A stretch of 64,000 bases of DNA. It comes from an uncultured Scytonema sp. GTDB taxonomy: Bacteria; Cyanobacteriota; Cyanobacteriia; Cyanobacteriales; Nostocaceae. Positions within the stretch are counted from its first letter, which is position 1; every line of letters starts with the position of its first letter. The DNA lies in the NCBI GenBank assembly GCA_937873135.1, contig CALMVQ010000069.1, positions 2,910-66,909 of the forward strand, in the 5' to 3' direction. The notes beneath the pieces were generated by a model, which had not been told where the DNA came from, made no database searches, and worked only from the letters and a program-made list of their open reading frames with translations. The position numbers were made by a program, and so were the translations under genes. Shown in pieces: positions 20,787 through 27,958 of the stretch.

Positions 20787-21003
20787 TCAAAATGATTATC
20801 ATTTTGATTAATTGTATTTGGAAGTCCCTTAGCAAGGAATCGCACAATTTCTCGTGGTTGTGAACGGCGTCACCACATAAGCGTGTTTTGGTAGAGTCGA
20901 GAGGCGGTATTATCCGCCGTCCCTCTCTGTTAGATCCGAGCGTGCCGTAGGGTAGGTAGCCAGCGAGTTACCAATATTGGCACTTTTCCAACCACCCCCC
21001 TCC

Positions 21004-21038
21004 AAACTACGCATGACCGTTTCCGTATCACGTAGCTT
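21004..21038 (-). ncRNA. Domain V of the inner group II intron
   Basis: On the minus strand the 35 nt read AAGCTACGTGA, then TACGGAAACGG, then TCATGCGTAGTTT. AAGCTACG pairs with CGTAGTTT (with the G-U third pair and AGC triad typical of domain V), TG is the 3' bulge, and GAAA is the tetraloop, with one bulged A in the upper stem. It lies at the end of the maturase frame, as expected for the catalytic core. Confidence 0.75.
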
Positions 21039-21064
21039 TCCGGTAATCTTTACGTTTGAGAGCA

Positions 21065-22870
21065 TCACCGTCGTAGCGTCCATACTGAATTTTCTCGTGG
21101 CACTGACGGCAAACCAAAGCGTGTTTTACGTTTGCGTGCTGACATTTTAACCATCCATTCTGGGCGTTCAGAGCATCCCTTTTGCTTAAGGTCTGCTAAC
21201 TTGCGGATATGATGGACTTCAATATTGTCCGTTACGCCGCAAATTTCACATTCTTGGGCTAAGAGGCGTTGAACAACTTCGCTACGTCCGTTCCAGATTT
21301 TCGATATCTGGTGATCATCAATTTTGACCCACTTATTCCATCGCAAAGAAACACCACCAAAATAAGTTATGAGAGGTTTCTTTAAGTCACGTTCCACTGT
21401 TACAAGTAGTACTTTATAAGTCCCATCTTTTGTATCAATGGTGGTGCGATATCGCTTGTAAATTTTCTGACAAGTAGTTTTGAACTTCTTAGCCAAGGTT
21501 TTTACAAGGGAAAGCTCCATAACTCGTTTGAGTGAAGATAGCGTATGGAGGTTGTAAGCCATGCGGTAGTATTGGACTACTCCTCGATACTCCGCTTGAT
21601 ACTGGCTAACTATGCTGTAGGCATCGTCATTGACTCTTTGCATTAGATGTATGGGCTTTCCCTTGCGCATATATTTGACGCAACGGTCTTTAATTACGCT
21701 TTTGGGAACCCTCAGCCCCACACTACCATTGATACATCTTTGACCACGATGGTCATGTTTATCATCGGCATGTAGTATATGGATTTCGTAACCCAGGAAT
21801 TTAGCAGCTTCGTCACGCGCATGGGTAACGAGCGTCTTTTCATCACTGAGTTCCAGTTTTAATTCGTCACGTAAAAACGTGGCGATTTTCTGTTTGATAT
21901 CCAACGCTTCGGATTTTGAACCTATTACCCCTAACAGGAAATCATCGGCGTACCTTGTGTACCAGAGGCGACGAAAGTTTGGGTCATTGGGGTCGCGGGA
22001 TGGAATAGACTGTGCCTGTTGGTTCAGTTTCCCTGCTTCTGCCAGTTTTCCCGCTTTTCGTGCTTTTGATGCAGCTAAAGTTAATTCCCTATACGGTGGG
22101 TAAACACTCCGTCGTTGACCGCGTGTGAAGGCTTGTATTAATTCTTGTTCGACATATTTATCCAGTTTGTCTAGTACCAAATTGGAAAGAATTGGACTTA
22201 CAACTGCACCCTGCGGTACTCCACTGTAGGTGGAATTGTATTTCCAGTTTTCCAGGTATCCTGCATCCAGCAATCCCTTGATTAGTCGAATAAAGCGATT
22301 ATCATGGATTTTATCAAGCAATATGTTTAACAGGATAGTATGGTCTATTCTGTCAAAGCACGCGCTGATATCTCCCTCGATAAACCACTTTGTAGCTCGA
22401 CCTTTTTGGGTAATTTCCTTCAGGGCAGTATGGCATCCGCGTTGTGGTCGGAAACCGTGAGAATGTTGGCTAAATTGTGGCTCGTAATAAGCTTCTAGTA
22501 TGGAGTGAATAACTTCTTGAAGTAATTTATCCGTCCAAGAAGGCATACCGAGAGGTCGCAATTTGCCGTTCTTCTTTGGTATGTAGGTACGTCGTACTGG
22601 TGTCCATTTATAACGCTCGTATCTGAGAGCCTTAATGATGGCATTAATTTTCTCCAGGGACATCCCGTCCACTGTTTCCGGCGTAGAGCCCGGTGTCATT
22701 GCACCTGCGTTGCTGTTTAGCTTAGCATAGGCGCGTAAGTACAAGTCTGGGTTGTATAGAAGTCGATACACATTTTCTACTGGCAACCCACGTTGCCCAC
22801 GTTCCCGTATGATGTTCAGTATCGTTTCGGCTGTTCGCATCTCGCGTACCTCTTTCGATTTCTGTTCCAT
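21065..22870 (-). CDS. ltrA: Group II intron reverse transcriptase/maturase, frameshifted in its HNH domain
   Basis: This intron-encoded protein (601 residues as read) helps the intron RNA fold and splice, and copies it during retrohoming. It contains the RT fingers/palm with IPKKNGKLRPLGMPSW, the EGDISACFDRIDH block and the catalytic YADD near residue 306 (RYADDFLLG). The X/maturase domain follows (AEYRGVVQYYRMAYNLHTLS), and then an HNH endonuclease start with CEICG and HHIRKL. One extra base at about 21119-21124 shifts the frame after SARKRKT. In the next frame the protein continues ALVCRQCHEKIQYGRYDG and ends at 21028, so the second Cys pair of the HNH zinc site is lost. RT and maturase regions are intact. 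Confidence 0.9.
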   Translation of the reverse strand: MEQKSKEVREMRTAETILNIIRERGQRGLPVENVYRLLYNPDLYLRAYAKLNSNAGAMTPGSTPETVDGMSLEKINAIIKALRYERYKWTPVRRTYIPKKNGKLRPLGMPSWTDKLLQEVIHSILEAYYEPQFSQHSHGFRPQRGCHTALKEITQKGRATKWFIEGDISACFDRIDHTILLNILLDKIHDNRFIRLIKGLLDAGYLENWKYNSTYSGVPQGAVVSPILSNLVLDKLDKYVEQELIQAFTRGQRRSVYPPYRELTLAASKARKAGKLAEAGKLNQQAQSIPSRDPNDPNFRRLWYTRYADDFLLGVIGSKSEALDIKQKIATFLRDELKLELSDEKTLVTHARDEAAKFLGYEIHILHADDKHDHRGQRCINGSVGLRVPKSVIKDRCVKYMRKGKPIHLMQRVNDDAYSIVSQYQAEYRGVVQYYRMAYNLHTLSSLKRVMELSLVKTLAKKFKTTCQKIYKRYRTTIDTKDGTYKVLLVTVERDLKKPLITYFGGVSLRWNKWVKIDDHQISKIWNGRSEVVQRLLAQECEICGVTDNIEVHHIRKLADLKQKGCSERPEWMVKMSARKRKTRFGLPSVPRENSVWTLRR

Positions 22871-23404
22871 CCAATTACCTGTGACACTTCGCCATGTAAA
22901 CGGCTCTCCCGTTCTCCCTGGTGGGGCGTTATTCCCACGACTACTATTGTCACTCCGTCACCATAGGACTCGCGTCCCGTAGGTAATCCCATGTTCCGTC
23001 ACTGATGAACGTATCAAGAACGACTTAGGCTCCTACTCATATCCTTAAATGAGTTCATTACTCATCGCTCCAAGGTCAGGGTGTACCATTAACGAAAGTT
23101 GATTTAATGGTTACCTCGGACATCGGTGTACAGACGTGATACCGAAGGATGTGCGCTTCCACCTCTGGATATTAGGGTTTAAGCAGTCTAGCTTTTAGCC
23201 ATATCGTTCAGGCGTTGCGGGACTGTAATGTACACGTCTTCTATTACTTCCCGCTTTACGAACATGCTCTTGTCCCCTCGCCCTTTCGGGTCTAGGTTAG
23301 TTGTTCGCCTTGGAGTCATTACCCTGAACTCCAGCCAACTGTGTTGGCAATTCAATCAGTGCGTACCACGGCGCACCATTTCTGTGCACTCGGCTCCCGA
23401 TATT

Positions 23405-23945
23405 CTAGGGTTTCCCCTTGCTCATGTGGATGTAGTCATGACAACTCTCATGTATAGCTAGAAGGTTTTTCGTCTTCCAGTTATTATGGTTGCCATCTAT
23501 GTGGTGTAAATGTACACGTTCTTCACTGAACATCCTAAGACCGCAGTGTCCACAGGTATGATTTTGCCGTTTTAGGGCTTTAGAGGTTTCACCATCGTAG
23601 AGCTTGCTGTTACGCTCGCTCCAATAGGTTGTATCTCCATCAAAGGGTGATTTATTTCCTCTGACGTTGACATGTTTGTTTTCGGAGTAGGGAATCGCTG
23701 GGAATGCCTTGTCTAGTAATTGCTTGCTAGAGTATCGGGTATTCTTTGCTTCCTTATTGAACACCTCAAACGCTCGTTTTTGGATGAAGTGCAGCGAGTT
23801 TCGCGTCCCATCCATCTTGCAGAACTTGTGGTAATTCCTCCATCCTCTAACCAAAGGGGCTAATTTCTCGGCTTTAACCTTGGAGCCATAATTCGAGTTG
23901 TTGACGATGACTTTTACTTTCTGGCGAAAAGCTGGAACTTTAACC
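23405..23945 (-). pseudogene. C-terminal part of a second group II intron maturase (outer intron)
   Basis: The frame contains KVIVNNSNYGSKVKAEKLAP and LVRGWRNYHKFCKMDGTRNS, the end of the maturase (X) domain, followed by a complete HNH endonuclease: TCGHCGLRMF, then VHLHHIDGNHNNWKTKNLL and ESCHDYIHMSKGKP. It is clearly a different protein from the inner intron's maturase. The reverse transcriptase domains upstream are missing; the frame runs on to 24019, but beyond about 23945 it is antisense to a TMEM43-like gene and no longer maturase. The stop at 23405 lies 8 bases before the outer intron's domain V. Confidence 0.85.
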
Positions 23946-24432: not shown

Positions 24433-25323
24433 GTGCGAATTTATTCCTCTTTTGTCACTCTAGGCAGATTGCTAGGGACAGAGCAGAATCCTTTATCTCA
24501 AAGTGAATTTTTGAAGGATGACGCGGTTGTCTGTCAGACTAAAACAGGAAAAAAGCTGACTGTCGCTTTTTCTTCTTCTGTAATTGAGACTGAGATCAAA
24601 GGCTTACAAAATTTTGTTTATATTGGTCGGGATATCACACAGCGTCAGCGAAGCGAACAACTTCTTCTTGTCGAGCATACAACAACGCGGATCTTGGCTT
24701 CCTCGGCAACGCTTTCTGAAGCAACAACGAAGATCTTATCTGCTATCTGTTCTCAATTAGAATGGGACTTGGGAGAATTCTGGAGCGTAGATCCGCAAGC
24801 TGACGTGCTGCGACTCAGTTCCATCTGGTACAGACAGAGTTTCAATTCTCCACCTTTTGAGTTGGTTTCCGAGCAGATTCGCTATCTACCAAACCTCGGA
24901 CTGCCCGGTCGAATTTGGGCGAACGGTGAATCTGCTTGGATTGATGACGTTATCGATGATGAAGACTTCCTGCGAACCGAAAGCGCTGCTAAAGAAGGGC
25001 TACACGGAGCTTTTGGTTTTCCTATTAAATGTGGAAGCGAAGTTAAAGGCGTTATGACCTTCTTCAGCCGCAAAACTCAAGAAGTTCAGTCAGATTTGCT
25101 AGCAATGATCGCAGTTATCGGTAGCCAAATTAGTCAATTCATGTTACGCTTTCAAGCTGAGGCAGCATTGAGAGAGAGCAAAGAGCGCTTTCGCAGTGCA
25201 TTTGACTACACTCCGATTGGAATGGCCCTAGTGACATTAGATGGTCGTTGGCTATTCAGAGCAAGAATTGCTGAGCAAAACTCTTCAAGATCTCACTTAT
25301 TCAGACGACCGAGAAATCGATAA
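24433..25323 (+). pseudogene. 5' part of a broken PAS/GAF sensor cyclase-phosphodiesterase gene
   Basis: The frame opens at a GTG without a ribosome-binding site inside what reads as the second half of a PAS domain (KTGKKLTVAFSSSVIETEIK ... YIGRDITQRQRSEQ). A GAF domain follows at about residues 85-235 (SAICSQLEWDLGEFWSVDPQ, GLPGRIWANGESAWIDDV, GAFGFPIKCGSEVKGVMTFF), and then the start of another PAS (RFRSAFDYTPIGMALVTLDG). At RWL the frame jumps to nonsense and stops at 25323, while the PAS continues in the frame that opens at 25241. Both the N-terminal truncation and the internal shift make this a pseudogene. Confidence 0.8.
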
Positions 25324-27958
25324 AGGTTGTGTGCGCCAACTGTTGTTAGGTGAAATTCGTTACTATCAAACTGAGAAGCGGTACTTACACAAGCTCGGAC
25401 ATTTAGTATCGGTTCTCTTAAGCATATCGCTGGTGCATGACGTTCAGGGTCATCCACTGCATTTTATTGCTCAGATTCAGGATATTACAGAGCGCAAGCA
25501 GGCCGAGAACGCCCTTAAACAGAGTGAGCAGCGATTTCGCTCAATGGCAGACAGCGCTCCTGTCCTCATGTGGATGACCGACGCCGATGGGCTATGCACC
25601 TATGTAAACCATTGGTGGTTGGACTTTACGGGTCGGACGTTAGAGCAGGAGTTAGGTTTTGGATGGACTACAGGCATACCCACTAACGAGTTAGAACGCT
25701 ATAATACTCTCTGGCAAAGGGCTTTTGCAACGCGAGAGTCCTTGTGGATCGAACACCGACTGCGCCACTACACTGGTGCGTATCGGTGGATTTTAGTGTC
25801 AGGATCGCCACGCTACGTAGGCACAGAGTTTTTCGGATACATTGGTTTTTGTGTGGATATCACTGAGCATAAAAATGCTGAAGCTATAAGATATGAAAGT
25901 GAAGAAGGCTTCAAGAGTATTATGAACAGCAGTCCGGCTGTTGCTTTTTTAAAAGACTCACAAGGGCACATCCTTTACGTTAACAAGACATTAGAGCGCA
26001 ATTTTAATGTCGAATTGACCGATCTGCAGGGGAAGACAGATTTCGATTGGTTGCCAGAAGAAACAGCAAAACAGCTGCGTGAAAATGATATCTACGTTCT
26101 TTCTACAAGTAATACCAAACAAGTCGTTGAAATTATTCCTGCACCAGATAGATGTTTTCATTACTGGTTAGTGTTTAAGTTTCCCCTTACAGACGCTAAG
26201 GGACGACAGTTACTTGGAGGTGTGGCAATTGACATCACCGAACTCAAACTCCTGGAACAACAGCTTTTTGAAGAAAAAGAACTGGCTCAAGTCACATTAC
26301 AATCTATCGGGGATGCCGTGATTACTACTGATGCCTCTGGCAAGATAAAATATCTCAACCCAGTTGCAGAACAACTCACTGGCTGGAGTTTGCAAGATGC
26401 ACAAGCAAAGCCTTTGGCAGAAGTATTTAGGATCGTCAACGAAACCACCCATCTGACTGTAGAAAATGCTGTAGAAAAAGCCTTGCGTTCTGGATCTACT
26501 GTAGATTTTACCAAAGATAGTGTCTTAATTAGCCGCGACGGCACCGATATTGCTATTGACGAATCTGCTGCACCCATTCGTGCTAAGGACGGTCAAATTA
26601 TCGGTGCTGTCATGGTATTTCAAGACGTTTCCCAGACACGTAGCATGGCACGTCAGTTATCTTGGCAAGCTACTCACGATGCCTTAACCGGACTCTTTAA
26701 CCGCAAGGAATTAGAACAACGTTTGGAACTTGCCTTAAGCAGCGCTAAGAGAGAAAGTCAACAACACGCACTGTGTTATCTAGATTTAGATCGATTTAAA
26801 ATTGTTAATGATACCTGCGGTCATACTGCTGGCGATGAATTACTGCGCCAAGTCGCTACACTGTTTCAAGGCTCGATGCGCTCCTCTGATATTTTAGCAC
26901 GTTTGGGCGGTGATGAGTTTGGGATTCTGCTTGAAGGTTGTCCACTAGAATCAGCATTGCGAATTGCTAACACGCTTTTACAACGTATCCAAAAGTTTCG
27001 TTTTGTTTGGCAAGATAAAACTTTCACAATTGGTGTCAGTATCGGTCTAGTCATCGTTAATGCAGAAAGTTTAAATATTAATAGTATATTAAGTACTGCT
27101 GACGCAGCTTGCTACATGGCTAAAAATAAAGGGCGCAATCGCGTACATATTTATCAAACGAACGATAGTGAGTTGGCTCTAGCTAAAGGAGAAACGCAAT
27201 GGGTTATGCGAATTGCTCAAGCTCTTGAAGAAAACCGTTTTTGCCTTTATCACCAGAAAATTGTCTCCACCTCCTCAACTCAACCTCATCGAGAACATTA
27301 CGAAGTCCTCCTGCGCCTCAATGATGAAATGGGTAACGTAGTGTCGCCAATGGCGTTTATTCCAGCAGCTGAACGCTACAATTTCATGCAAGCGATCGAC
27401 CGTTGGGTTATCAATAAATTGTTTGCTCGTCTCGGCCAAAGGAAATGGAGCCGTTGCACTAGTGAGTCCGGTAATTATGGCTGTATATATGCTATTAACC
27501 TCTCTAGTGCTAGTATCAATGAAGACCAATTCATAGATTTTCTGCGCGAACAGTTGGCATTACACCAAATTCCACCACAGGTGATTTGTTTTGAAATCAC
27601 TGAAACAGTTGCTATTGCCAATCTGGGAAAAGTCGCTTCCCTGATCCATGCCCTTAAAGAACTTGGCTGTCGTTTTGCTTTGGACGATTTTGGCAGTGGC
27701 ATGTCCTCCTTTGGCTATCTTAAACACTTACCTGTGGATTATTTAAAAATCGATGGTAGTTTTGTTAAGCATATTGTAGAGGAGCAAATTGATTCGGCAA
27801 TGGTACAAGCCATCAATCAAATTGGGCATTTGATGGGTATTCAAACGATCGCTAAGTTTGTAGAAAATCAGGACATCTTTGAAAAAATTAAAGCGATTGG
27901 GGTGGATTATGCACAGGGTTTTGGTATCGCCAAACCACAGCCTTTATGTTTCACTTAG
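25241..27958 (+). CDS. PAS-PAS-PAS-PAS-GGDEF-EAL protein, 3' part of a frameshifted gene
   Basis: 905 codons. VGYSEQELLSKTLQDLTYSD completes the PAS begun in the previous frame. Further PAS domains lie at about 100-215 (APVLMWMTDADGLCTYVNHW), 225-345 (NSSPAVAFLKDSQGHILYVN) and 350-465 (SIGDAVITTDASGKIKYLNP). A GGDEF domain (about 480-640) has an intact LGGDEF catalytic loop and could make cyclic di-GMP. The EAL domain (about 655-900) has EVLLRL in place of EALLR and DDFGSGMSS, but Lys872 stands in IAKFVE where the catalytic Glu of the A-E-x-V-E loop is expected, so phosphodiesterase activity is doubtful. The ATG at 25241 is inside a PAS domain, so translation as a separate protein is uncertain. 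Cytoplasmic. Confidence 0.8.
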   Translation: MVVGYSEQELLSKTLQDLTYSDDREIDKGCVRQLLLGEIRYYQTEKRYLHKLGHLVSVLLSISLVHDVQGHPLHFIAQIQDITERKQAENALKQSEQRFRSMADSAPVLMWMTDADGLCTYVNHWWLDFTGRTLEQELGFGWTTGIPTNELERYNTLWQRAFATRESLWIEHRLRHYTGAYRWILVSGSPRYVGTEFFGYIGFCVDITEHKNAEAIRYESEEGFKSIMNSSPAVAFLKDSQGHILYVNKTLERNFNVELTDLQGKTDFDWLPEETAKQLRENDIYVLSTSNTKQVVEIIPAPDRCFHYWLVFKFPLTDAKGRQLLGGVAIDITELKLLEQQLFEEKELAQVTLQSIGDAVITTDASGKIKYLNPVAEQLTGWSLQDAQAKPLAEVFRIVNETTHLTVENAVEKALRSGSTVDFTKDSVLISRDGTDIAIDESAAPIRAKDGQIIGAVMVFQDVSQTRSMARQLSWQATHDALTGLFNRKELEQRLELALSSAKRESQQHALCYLDLDRFKIVNDTCGHTAGDELLRQVATLFQGSMRSSDILARLGGDEFGILLEGCPLESALRIANTLLQRIQKFRFVWQDKTFTIGVSIGLVIVNAESLNINSILSTADAACYMAKNKGRNRVHIYQTNDSELALAKGETQWVMRIAQALEENRFCLYHQKIVSTSSTQPHREHYEVLLRLNDEMGNVVSPMAFIPAAERYNFMQAIDRWVINKLFARLGQRKWSRCTSESGNYGCIYAINLSSASINEDQFIDFLREQLALHQIPPQVICFEITETVAIANLGKVASLIHALKELGCRFALDDFGSGMSSFGYLKHLPVDYLKIDGSFVKHIVEEQIDSAMVQAINQIGHLMGIQTIAKFVENQDIFEKIKAIGVDYAQGFGIAKPQPLCFT

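Follow-up and report, generated by a model that had tools for sequence, protein, structure and literature searches.

A group II intron lineage that probably homes to domain V of other group II introns: an inserted copy in an uncultured Scytonema sp. and its relatives across bacterial phyla

RESULTS

Two group II introns, one within domain V of the other

The window, by which we mean the whole stretch of DNA analyzed here, comprises 64,000 nucleotides (nt) from an uncultured Scytonema sp. (GenBank assembly GCA_937873135.1, contig CALMVQ010000069.1, positions 2,910 to 66,909 of the forward strand); coordinates below are positions within it. On its minus strand, a group II intron of 2430 nt, running from 23376 to 20947 and called the inner intron here, interrupts a second group II intron, the outer intron, within its 34-nt domain V (DV). 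Read on the minus strand, the junctions are ...GAGCCGAGTGCACAGAAATG / inner intron GTGCGCCGTG...CCTACCCTAC / GGCACGCTCGGATC..., and GAGCCGAGTGCACAGAAATG, lying directly 5' of the insertion, together with GGCACGCTCGGATC, lying directly 3' of it, makes up the 34-nt outer DV, which domain VI (DVI) then follows. The features of the locus are as follows.

20947..23376, minus strand: inner group II intron, 2430 nt, GUGCG...CUAC; ends conserved in full-length homologues aligned over 1-2430, with the 3' end at the end of the RF00029 match
20947..21040, minus strand: DV-DVI of the inner intron in its Rfam extent; RF00029, 46.4 bits (gathering score 40), with one inserted letter in DV
21038-21004, minus strand: the inner intron's own DV, 35 nt, canonical plus one; read from the alignment
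21065..22870, minus strand: inner protein, 601 amino acids, with reverse transcriptase (RT), maturase and the start of an AI2M-like HNH endonuclease; Pfam RVT_1 (5.7e-35), Intron_maturas2, AI2M-like_HNH
23377..23396, minus strand: 5' half of the outer DV, 20 nt, the 5' exon of the inner intron; from sequence, and from fold and covariation of the rejoined halves
20933..20946, minus strand: 3' half of the outer DV, 14 nt, the 3' exon of the inner intron; on the same grounds
20891..20932, minus strand: outer linker and DVI to the 3' end (..CTCTAC); closely alike in the uninterrupted loci L002, L003, L004 and L009
23408..23902 (about), minus strand: outer protein remnant, maturase-specific domain and C-terminal HNH-like part; GIIM 1.9e-9, with 63-79% identical pieces elsewhere in the genome

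A preliminary description of this DNA had proposed base-precise boundaries at 20947 and 23376, and both ends hold: the Rfam DV-DVI match of the inner intron stops exactly on the proposed last base (20947). It had also given the inner intron GUGCG and AC ends and a maturase gene. We read the termini GTGCG and AC in the window copy and in full-length homologues, and the Pfam matches agree as to the gene. The Rfam models for domains I to IV (D1-D4), which need not cover every class, gave no match to the 5' part of the inner intron; therefore, the evidence for its 5' end is GTGCG and the alignment of homologues from position 1 onward.

The rejoined 20 and 14 nt form a DV hairpin of -13.2 kcal/mol (z, -2.2; 5 of 200 shuffles fold equally well) in which 12 of 14 pairs are standard. 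The AGC triad is partnered by GAU, not GUU, which sets the triad G opposite an A; the same GAU partner occurs in the uninterrupted relatives L003 and L009 of the same genome. A search of the genome for an uninterrupted outer intron, suggested in the preliminary description, returned L002, L003, L004 and L009 as relatives of the outer DV-DVI, and these adjoin the protein pieces that share 63-79% identity with the outer remnant. The outer intron has lost its 5' part and keeps only a C-terminal protein remnant; the claim that the site is DV of a truncated intron thus stands, the rejoined halves both folding and covarying (see below). The remnant was detected through the Pfam maturase-specific domain and not through our scan for upstream frames. 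The insertion site lies in DV, 3' of the stop of the outer open reading frame (ORF), and not in the RT ORF or domain IV.

Elsewhere in the window's genome, group II intron 3' ends lie close together on the same strand in two places, about 1 kb apart on G000:C242 (L003 and L009) and 0.35 kb apart on G000:C348 (L002 and L008); these are possibly tandem or nested introns.

Relatives of the inner intron share the insertion point

Relatives of the inner protein were collected regardless of their surroundings. They comprise the best 80 of 253 relatives in a genome collection, 32 in viral contigs, 1 from 386 cyanobacterial genomes, 7 plasmid records (6 of 552 matching records and 1 more) and 1 of 6 phage records. 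Alignment, together with profiles of the 5' region and the 3' end, gave the intron ends. Among those fetched, 32 of the 37 introns of one clade that have a readable site interrupt DV of another intron, and they do so at the same position, two bases past the DV tetraloop. Both halves of DV are present at 21 of these loci, the 5' half only at 4 (L031, L053, L077 and L113), and the 3' half only at 7 (L043, L074, L076, L090, L146, L156 and L157). The rejoined DV is 34 nt long and cut after position 20 at 16 of the 21 two-half loci; at L030, L032, L035, L036 and L039, it exceeds this length by one or two bases, and the cut is at the equivalent point. Loci with both halves come from Cyanobacteriota, Planctomycetota, Pseudomonadota and Bacteroidota, whereas only the 3' half is present on Salmonella plasmids and one Streptomyces plasmid.

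In a maximum-likelihood tree of 76 proteins, for which 41 distant rows were left out (117 to 76), 31 of the 32 DV introns fall into one 36-row clade with support of 99/98. This clade also holds L110, L049, L052, L143 and L047. The DV label changes 5 times on this tree, compared with 23.5 times in shuffles, counts in which L047 was scored as "other" though it has no readable site. A quicker first tree of 112 rows, from which the short proteins of L077, L089, L139, L140 and L141 were left out, had already given a 32-row clade with all 28 DV rows then known. Because L077 and L089 are too short for the tree, their placement in the clade is by similarity.

The DV-junction pattern was also used to search for more members. 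In the 386 cyanobacterial genomes, it returned only the window's own; eight viral contigs that matched it were set aside as nonmembers, all of them without homology to the intron. A search of Escherichia coli genomes for near matches to the Salmonella copy found none.

An ordinary accidental twintron without site preference would fit the single copy of the inner protein in its assembly, where the next best match is 43%, and twintrons are known from other cyanobacteria. However, it would not lead one to expect the same DV position in 32 of 37 relatives from at least four phyla, and we give this explanation almost no credence. Instead, these sequences make it very probable that the inner intron belongs to a lineage of mobile group II introns that home to DV of other group II introns.

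The rejoined halves fold and covary

At 20 loci, the rejoined flanks fold with a mean of -17.5 kcal/mol, the weakest at -8.1. When 3' halves were swapped between loci, the mean rose to -12.3 kcal/mol (standard deviation, 0.62), and 0 of 500 swaps were as low as the true halves. The mean at 28 other insertion sites is -5.7 kcal/mol, with L049 and L064 reaching about -15. Pairs were counted in the 16 of 21 two-half loci with a rejoined DV of canonical length, leaving out L030, L032, L035, L036 and L039 with their other DV lengths. In these 16, 93.8% of cells are paired, falling to 23-41% when the partner is slid, and covariation is 0.507 versus 0.175 in shuffles (0/500 as high). Likewise, there are 37 doubly changed cells versus 12.0 in shuffles (0/500) and eight pairs changed on both sides versus 5.5 (7/500). 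At its gathering score, the Rfam DV-DVI model detected none of the split DVs when the window and 28 other loci of this kind were searched. Chance insertion was rejected on the folding of the rejoined flanks.

The host introns are more diverse than the invaders

The outer introns that hold the inner ones vary widely. Rfam places outer D1-D4 upstream at five loci in two families (RF02003 and RF02012), with L075 and L111 grouping apart from L038, L039 and L061. An upstream frame that matches intron proteins is present at 15 of the 24 loci with a known 5' end, and at nine loci the outer frames span 475-693 codons (counted between stops), their ends lying 33-118 nt upstream of the insertion. The 11 outer proteins that we compared are 22-69% identical (51 of 55 pairs aligned), versus 54-91% for the inner proteins of those loci. 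At L040, the outer intron is itself a cousin of the inner one (51%). Finally, a single metagenome-assembled genome (MAG) holds two inner introns, L035 and L036, that match at 2427 of 2430 columns and sit in DVs of two differing outer introns, with flanks alike at 279 of 411 columns upstream and at 101 of 241 downstream. Judged by their sequences, such near-identical copies in two DVs are the trace that recent movement from DV to DV would be expected to leave.

These data bear on whether the composite arose by a single ancient nesting and was then inherited or transferred as a unit. Such a history would account for the same site in 32 loci, and the closest cyanobacterial cases do have similar outer introns: the outer proteins of L030 and L033 are 69% identical, and the flanks of the window copy and L034 are nearly alike. 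Against a single nesting are the divergence of the outer proteins relative to the inner ones, the two Rfam families of outer D1-D4, the two copies in one MAG and the uninterrupted relatives of the outer intron in the window's genome. We therefore consider it very improbable; a single-origin composite was rejected on the outer/inner divergence and the two-copy MAG.

Transfer RNAs (tRNAs) are predicted in two stretches that are apparently outer intron: a tRNA-Gly at L061:2711-2784, after D1-D4 and at the start of the open frame, and a tRNA-Met at L144:2399-2474, at the end of the frame and just before DV.

Probable target recognition by two pairings with domain V

To find the exon-binding sites (EBS) that contact the intron-binding sites (IBS) of the target, the 5' region (500 nt) of 28 introns was scanned for pairing with the 5' exon. 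The three best pairing windows lie on one diagonal and start at inner positions 278-280. The next best, at 241, lies on another diagonal and is absent from the top covariation signals, and windows 278-283 and 219-226 are among the strongest in the covariation scan. Two sites were assigned from pairing and covariation over the 28 introns.

23094..23099, minus strand: EBS1, inner positions 278-283; pairs with the DV tetraloop and the next 2 nt (-6 to -1)
23151..23157, minus strand: EBS2, inner positions 220-226; pairs with the DV stem on its 5' strand (-13 to -7)

EBS1 forms 137 of 168 pairs, compared with 115.7 +/- 3.9 when shuffled (0/5000), and EBS2 forms 130 of 196, compared with 107.1 +/- 4.5 (0/5000); because the shuffles ignore relatedness, we take these figures as support and not as exact values. 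For L075 and L111, the EBS1 register is perhaps one base off, and the counts were kept as computed. A GAGA tetraloop goes with TCTC in EBS1 in three of four cases (L042, L044 and L045; not L053). The four non-DV members in the scans pair at 4-6 of 6 positions in EBS1 and 5-6 of 7 in EBS2, and the EBS2 of the window copy pairs at 5 of 7. Full EBS1 pairing, outer D1-D4 and a long outer frame come together at L038 (Rhodocytophaga aerolata) and L061 (Massilia sp. Bi118); L033 (Nostoc foliaceum FACHB-393) has such a frame and pairs well at EBS1 and EBS2, but Rfam matched no D1-D4 there. These pairings indicate that the introns use the usual base-paired recognition and that conservation of RUG and of the tetraloop letters in DV keeps the site class constant.

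Attraction to DNA hairpins, like that of group IIC introns to terminator hairpins, would make DV merely a convenient hairpin. The rejoined targets do form hairpins, with the energies given above, and the loop would lie exposed in single-stranded DNA. However, EBS1 and EBS2 pairing covaries with the letters of the target, the sites of sister introns fold more weakly (the 28 other sites, L049 and L064 apart) and the position within the hairpin is fixed. The insertions lie within DV hairpins, two bases past the loop, and not after an intrinsic terminator. We thus hold hairpin attraction to be unlikely and prefer homing to DV through base pairing.

Several observations weigh against a lineage that homes to DV by these pairings. 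As to recognition, covariation windows 325 and 394 reach a similar z with pairing of only 39-46%, and in the 24 DV loci alone the excess is smaller, with 118 of 144 pairs versus 106.9 shuffled for EBS1 (6/5000 reach the observed value) and 109 of 168 versus 96.7 for EBS2 (8/5000), values subject to the same disregard of relatedness. EBS1 pairing is imperfect in many copies: L036 has only 3 of 6, and the window copy 4 of 6 with both mismatches beside the splice site. EBS2 of L035 pairs at 1 of 7, and the covariation scan gave no convincing partner column for EBS3-IBS3. As to the site, L049, L052, L143, L089 and L110 are clade members at other sites, and L037 has an odd 5' half with 10 of 14 pairs. 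L156 (Streptomyces, Actinomycetota) is doubtful, having the 3' half only, no recognizable intron 5' end and an apparently intact DV upstream. The element is also rare, with a protein match in 2 and the DV-junction pattern in 1 of the 386 sampled cyanobacterial genomes, the window's own being counted in both. Stops interrupt 6 of the 31 DV-member proteins. Lastly, 9 of the 24 loci scanned, the window included, have no upstream outer protein frame, and thus many outer introns may be remnants.

Relatives at other sites

Some of the introns related to this lineage interrupt other vital parts of group II introns. For thirteen related cyanobacterial introns, the site is the RT frame of another group II intron, where the insert separates the (D)I(E)KC codons from those for FD.

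RT-site introns (DIEKC/FDRI): L054-L059, L062, L072, L078, L085, L092, L096 and L145

A profile search of the flanks confirmed 11 of the 13; L085 and L092 rest on reading of the flanks. Identical or nearly identical copies occur in differing outer introns of Calothrix and Scytonema, also within one genome. L110 (genome G300), at position 1009 of the reverse complement, is inserted directly after RYADD of another intron's RT, which resumes with FVVF after the insert. L069, at position 725, marks a second site in DV, as it interrupts another intron's DV two bases short of the 3' end. Other relatives lie in protein genes, namely an HU gene (L143, annotated), a GYAWCA/GYAYCA frame (L049 and L052, by eye), a transposase-like frame (L089, by eye) and a phage SNF2 gene (L159, annotated).

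The invaders' own domain V

Four bases separate RUG from the tetraloop in a canonical DV. The clade members' own DVs, read by eye, have five in 28 of 30 cases and four in L038 and L075; the automatic count was 24, and L031, L032, L038, L047 and L061 were reassigned from the printed sequences, which gave 28 of 30. Among 48 rows outside the clade and the 13 RT-site rows, 17 had four bases and 4 had five; 2 more gave six (artifacts by eye) and 25 were unread. The extra base puts the EBS2-binding stretch of the own DV out of register. In 21 of 23 introns (18 of the 20 located in DVs and all 3 at other sites), EBS1 and EBS2 together form more pairs with the actual target than with the intron's own DV; L035 and L036 show the opposite.

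The one-nucleotide shift in the invaders' own DV may thus protect them from self-insertion. We advance this as a hypothesis because the outgroup introns L066 and L081-L083 also have the longer spacing and their readable flanks show no DV, and because the changes are few.

The window copy is probably a relic

The inner protein scores 268 bits against TIGR04416, below the cutoff of 300. Its YADD motif is intact, as it is in 31 of 31 DV members of the tree. Over window positions 21065-21170, the HNH part changes frame relative to relatives, and the second metal-binding half lies in another frame. The preliminary description had called the inner element a complete intron, which is right for its ends and maturase but not for this HNH part. 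Given the truncated outer intron, the changed endonuclease frame and the weak EBS1 pairing at the splice site, the copy in the window is probably a relic. We do not expect the window to hold a working twintron, since the 5' part of the outer intron is missing. The earlier term "twintron-like" is apt in that one group II intron lies inside another but is too narrow, in that this is one case of a lineage recurring at DV, and the outer intron is incomplete.

Outside the nested introns, overlapping frames of 296 and 905 amino acids at 24433-27958 appear by eye, in the ORF list only, to be one PAS/GGDEF-EAL-type sensor protein in two frames.

DISCUSSION

RUG and the tetraloop are conserved in most DVs, and therefore every intron family in a genome offers a site. 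We propose that two contacts would guide the intron RNA to its target, one in which EBS2 pairs along the 5' side of the DV stem and one in which EBS1 pairs with the tetraloop and two bases beyond it, and that the intron would then insert two bases past the tetraloop through reverse splicing and target-primed reverse transcription. Repeated retargeting would explain why EBS2 and EBS1 change in step with the variable stem letters. Reverse splicing, target-primed reverse transcription and removal of the inner before the outer intron belong to established knowledge of group II introns. An interrupted outer DV would be unusable until the inner intron is excised, and intact pairs would therefore have to splice in order, the inner one first. 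For the introns described here, we infer reverse splicing, sequential splicing and current mobility.

The Euglena psbF twintron reportedly has an internal group II intron within DV of the external one; it is said to be a single chloroplast case, with no homing lineage. Other known systems resemble ours in part. The cyanobacterium Thermosynechococcus elongatus likewise has one mobile group II intron (TeI3) at a conserved position in another (TeI4), but its inner introns are ORF-less, mutually identical and confined to related outer introns of one genome (PMC2882425). Their site is in domain IV, where the RT ORF has two start codons and the inner intron falls between them (Mohr et al. 2010, PMC2882425), and so the likeness to nesting in thermophilic cyanobacteria drawn in the preliminary description does not extend to the site. 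The Trichodesmium twintron, also cyanobacterial, likewise nests one group II intron in another, and sequential splicing is reported there (Pfreundt and Hess 2015, PMC4649490); its inner intron is in domain I, however, and the authors know no homologue in other bacteria (PMC4649490). Methanosarcina acetivorans shows repeated site-specific homing into other group II introns (PMC4424553), but into related intron ORFs, according to a title cited in PMC4649490, and not into DV, and as nested arrays in one archaeon. In Porphyridium plastids, one inner intron is likewise found in two different outer introns, but its site is in domain IV and the two outer introns are closely related (PMC4476101). Group IIC introns at terminators and attC sites share with the present lineage a site class that is a recurring structured motif (PMC4424553). 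Unlike them, the introns described here pair with the target through both EBS1 and EBS2, and their protein carries an HNH domain.

A review names homing sites, terminators and attC sites as the targets of bacterial group II introns (PMC4424553). No DV-homing lineage appears in the parts available to us of two euglenid twintron papers (PMC5572947 and PMC3534033) or an enterobacterial intron paper (PMC3522654), and we found no report of a bacterial lineage homing to DV in the open-access literature, represented mostly by titles and the openings of abstracts, with subscription papers scarcely covered. The DV-homing lineage is therefore likely, though not certain, to be new, a novel target within a known kind of element. 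By its authors' account, a genome survey pipeline cannot detect the outer intron of a twintron (PMC8919778), and the Rfam DV-DVI model missed the split DVs in the loci searched; thus, such pairs are probably underannotated.

Our fullest picture, a tentative one that we would sooner doubt than assert, is of a lineage of intron parasites crossing phyla that homes to DV, follows its hosts through EBS1 and EBS2 and avoids itself through the extra nucleotide that its own DV has between the stretches bound by EBS2 and EBS1, while its sisters chose the RT motifs DIEKC/FD and YADD. Such an intron would be a parasite of parasites: its target is the ribozyme core common to other group II introns, and its sites travel with those introns. 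Splicing out would hide the invader from both the cell and the host intron. The finding thereby opens questions of how an intron is retargeted at one structural site, how far the outer intron depends on the inner one through sequential splicing and how an invader avoids its own DV.

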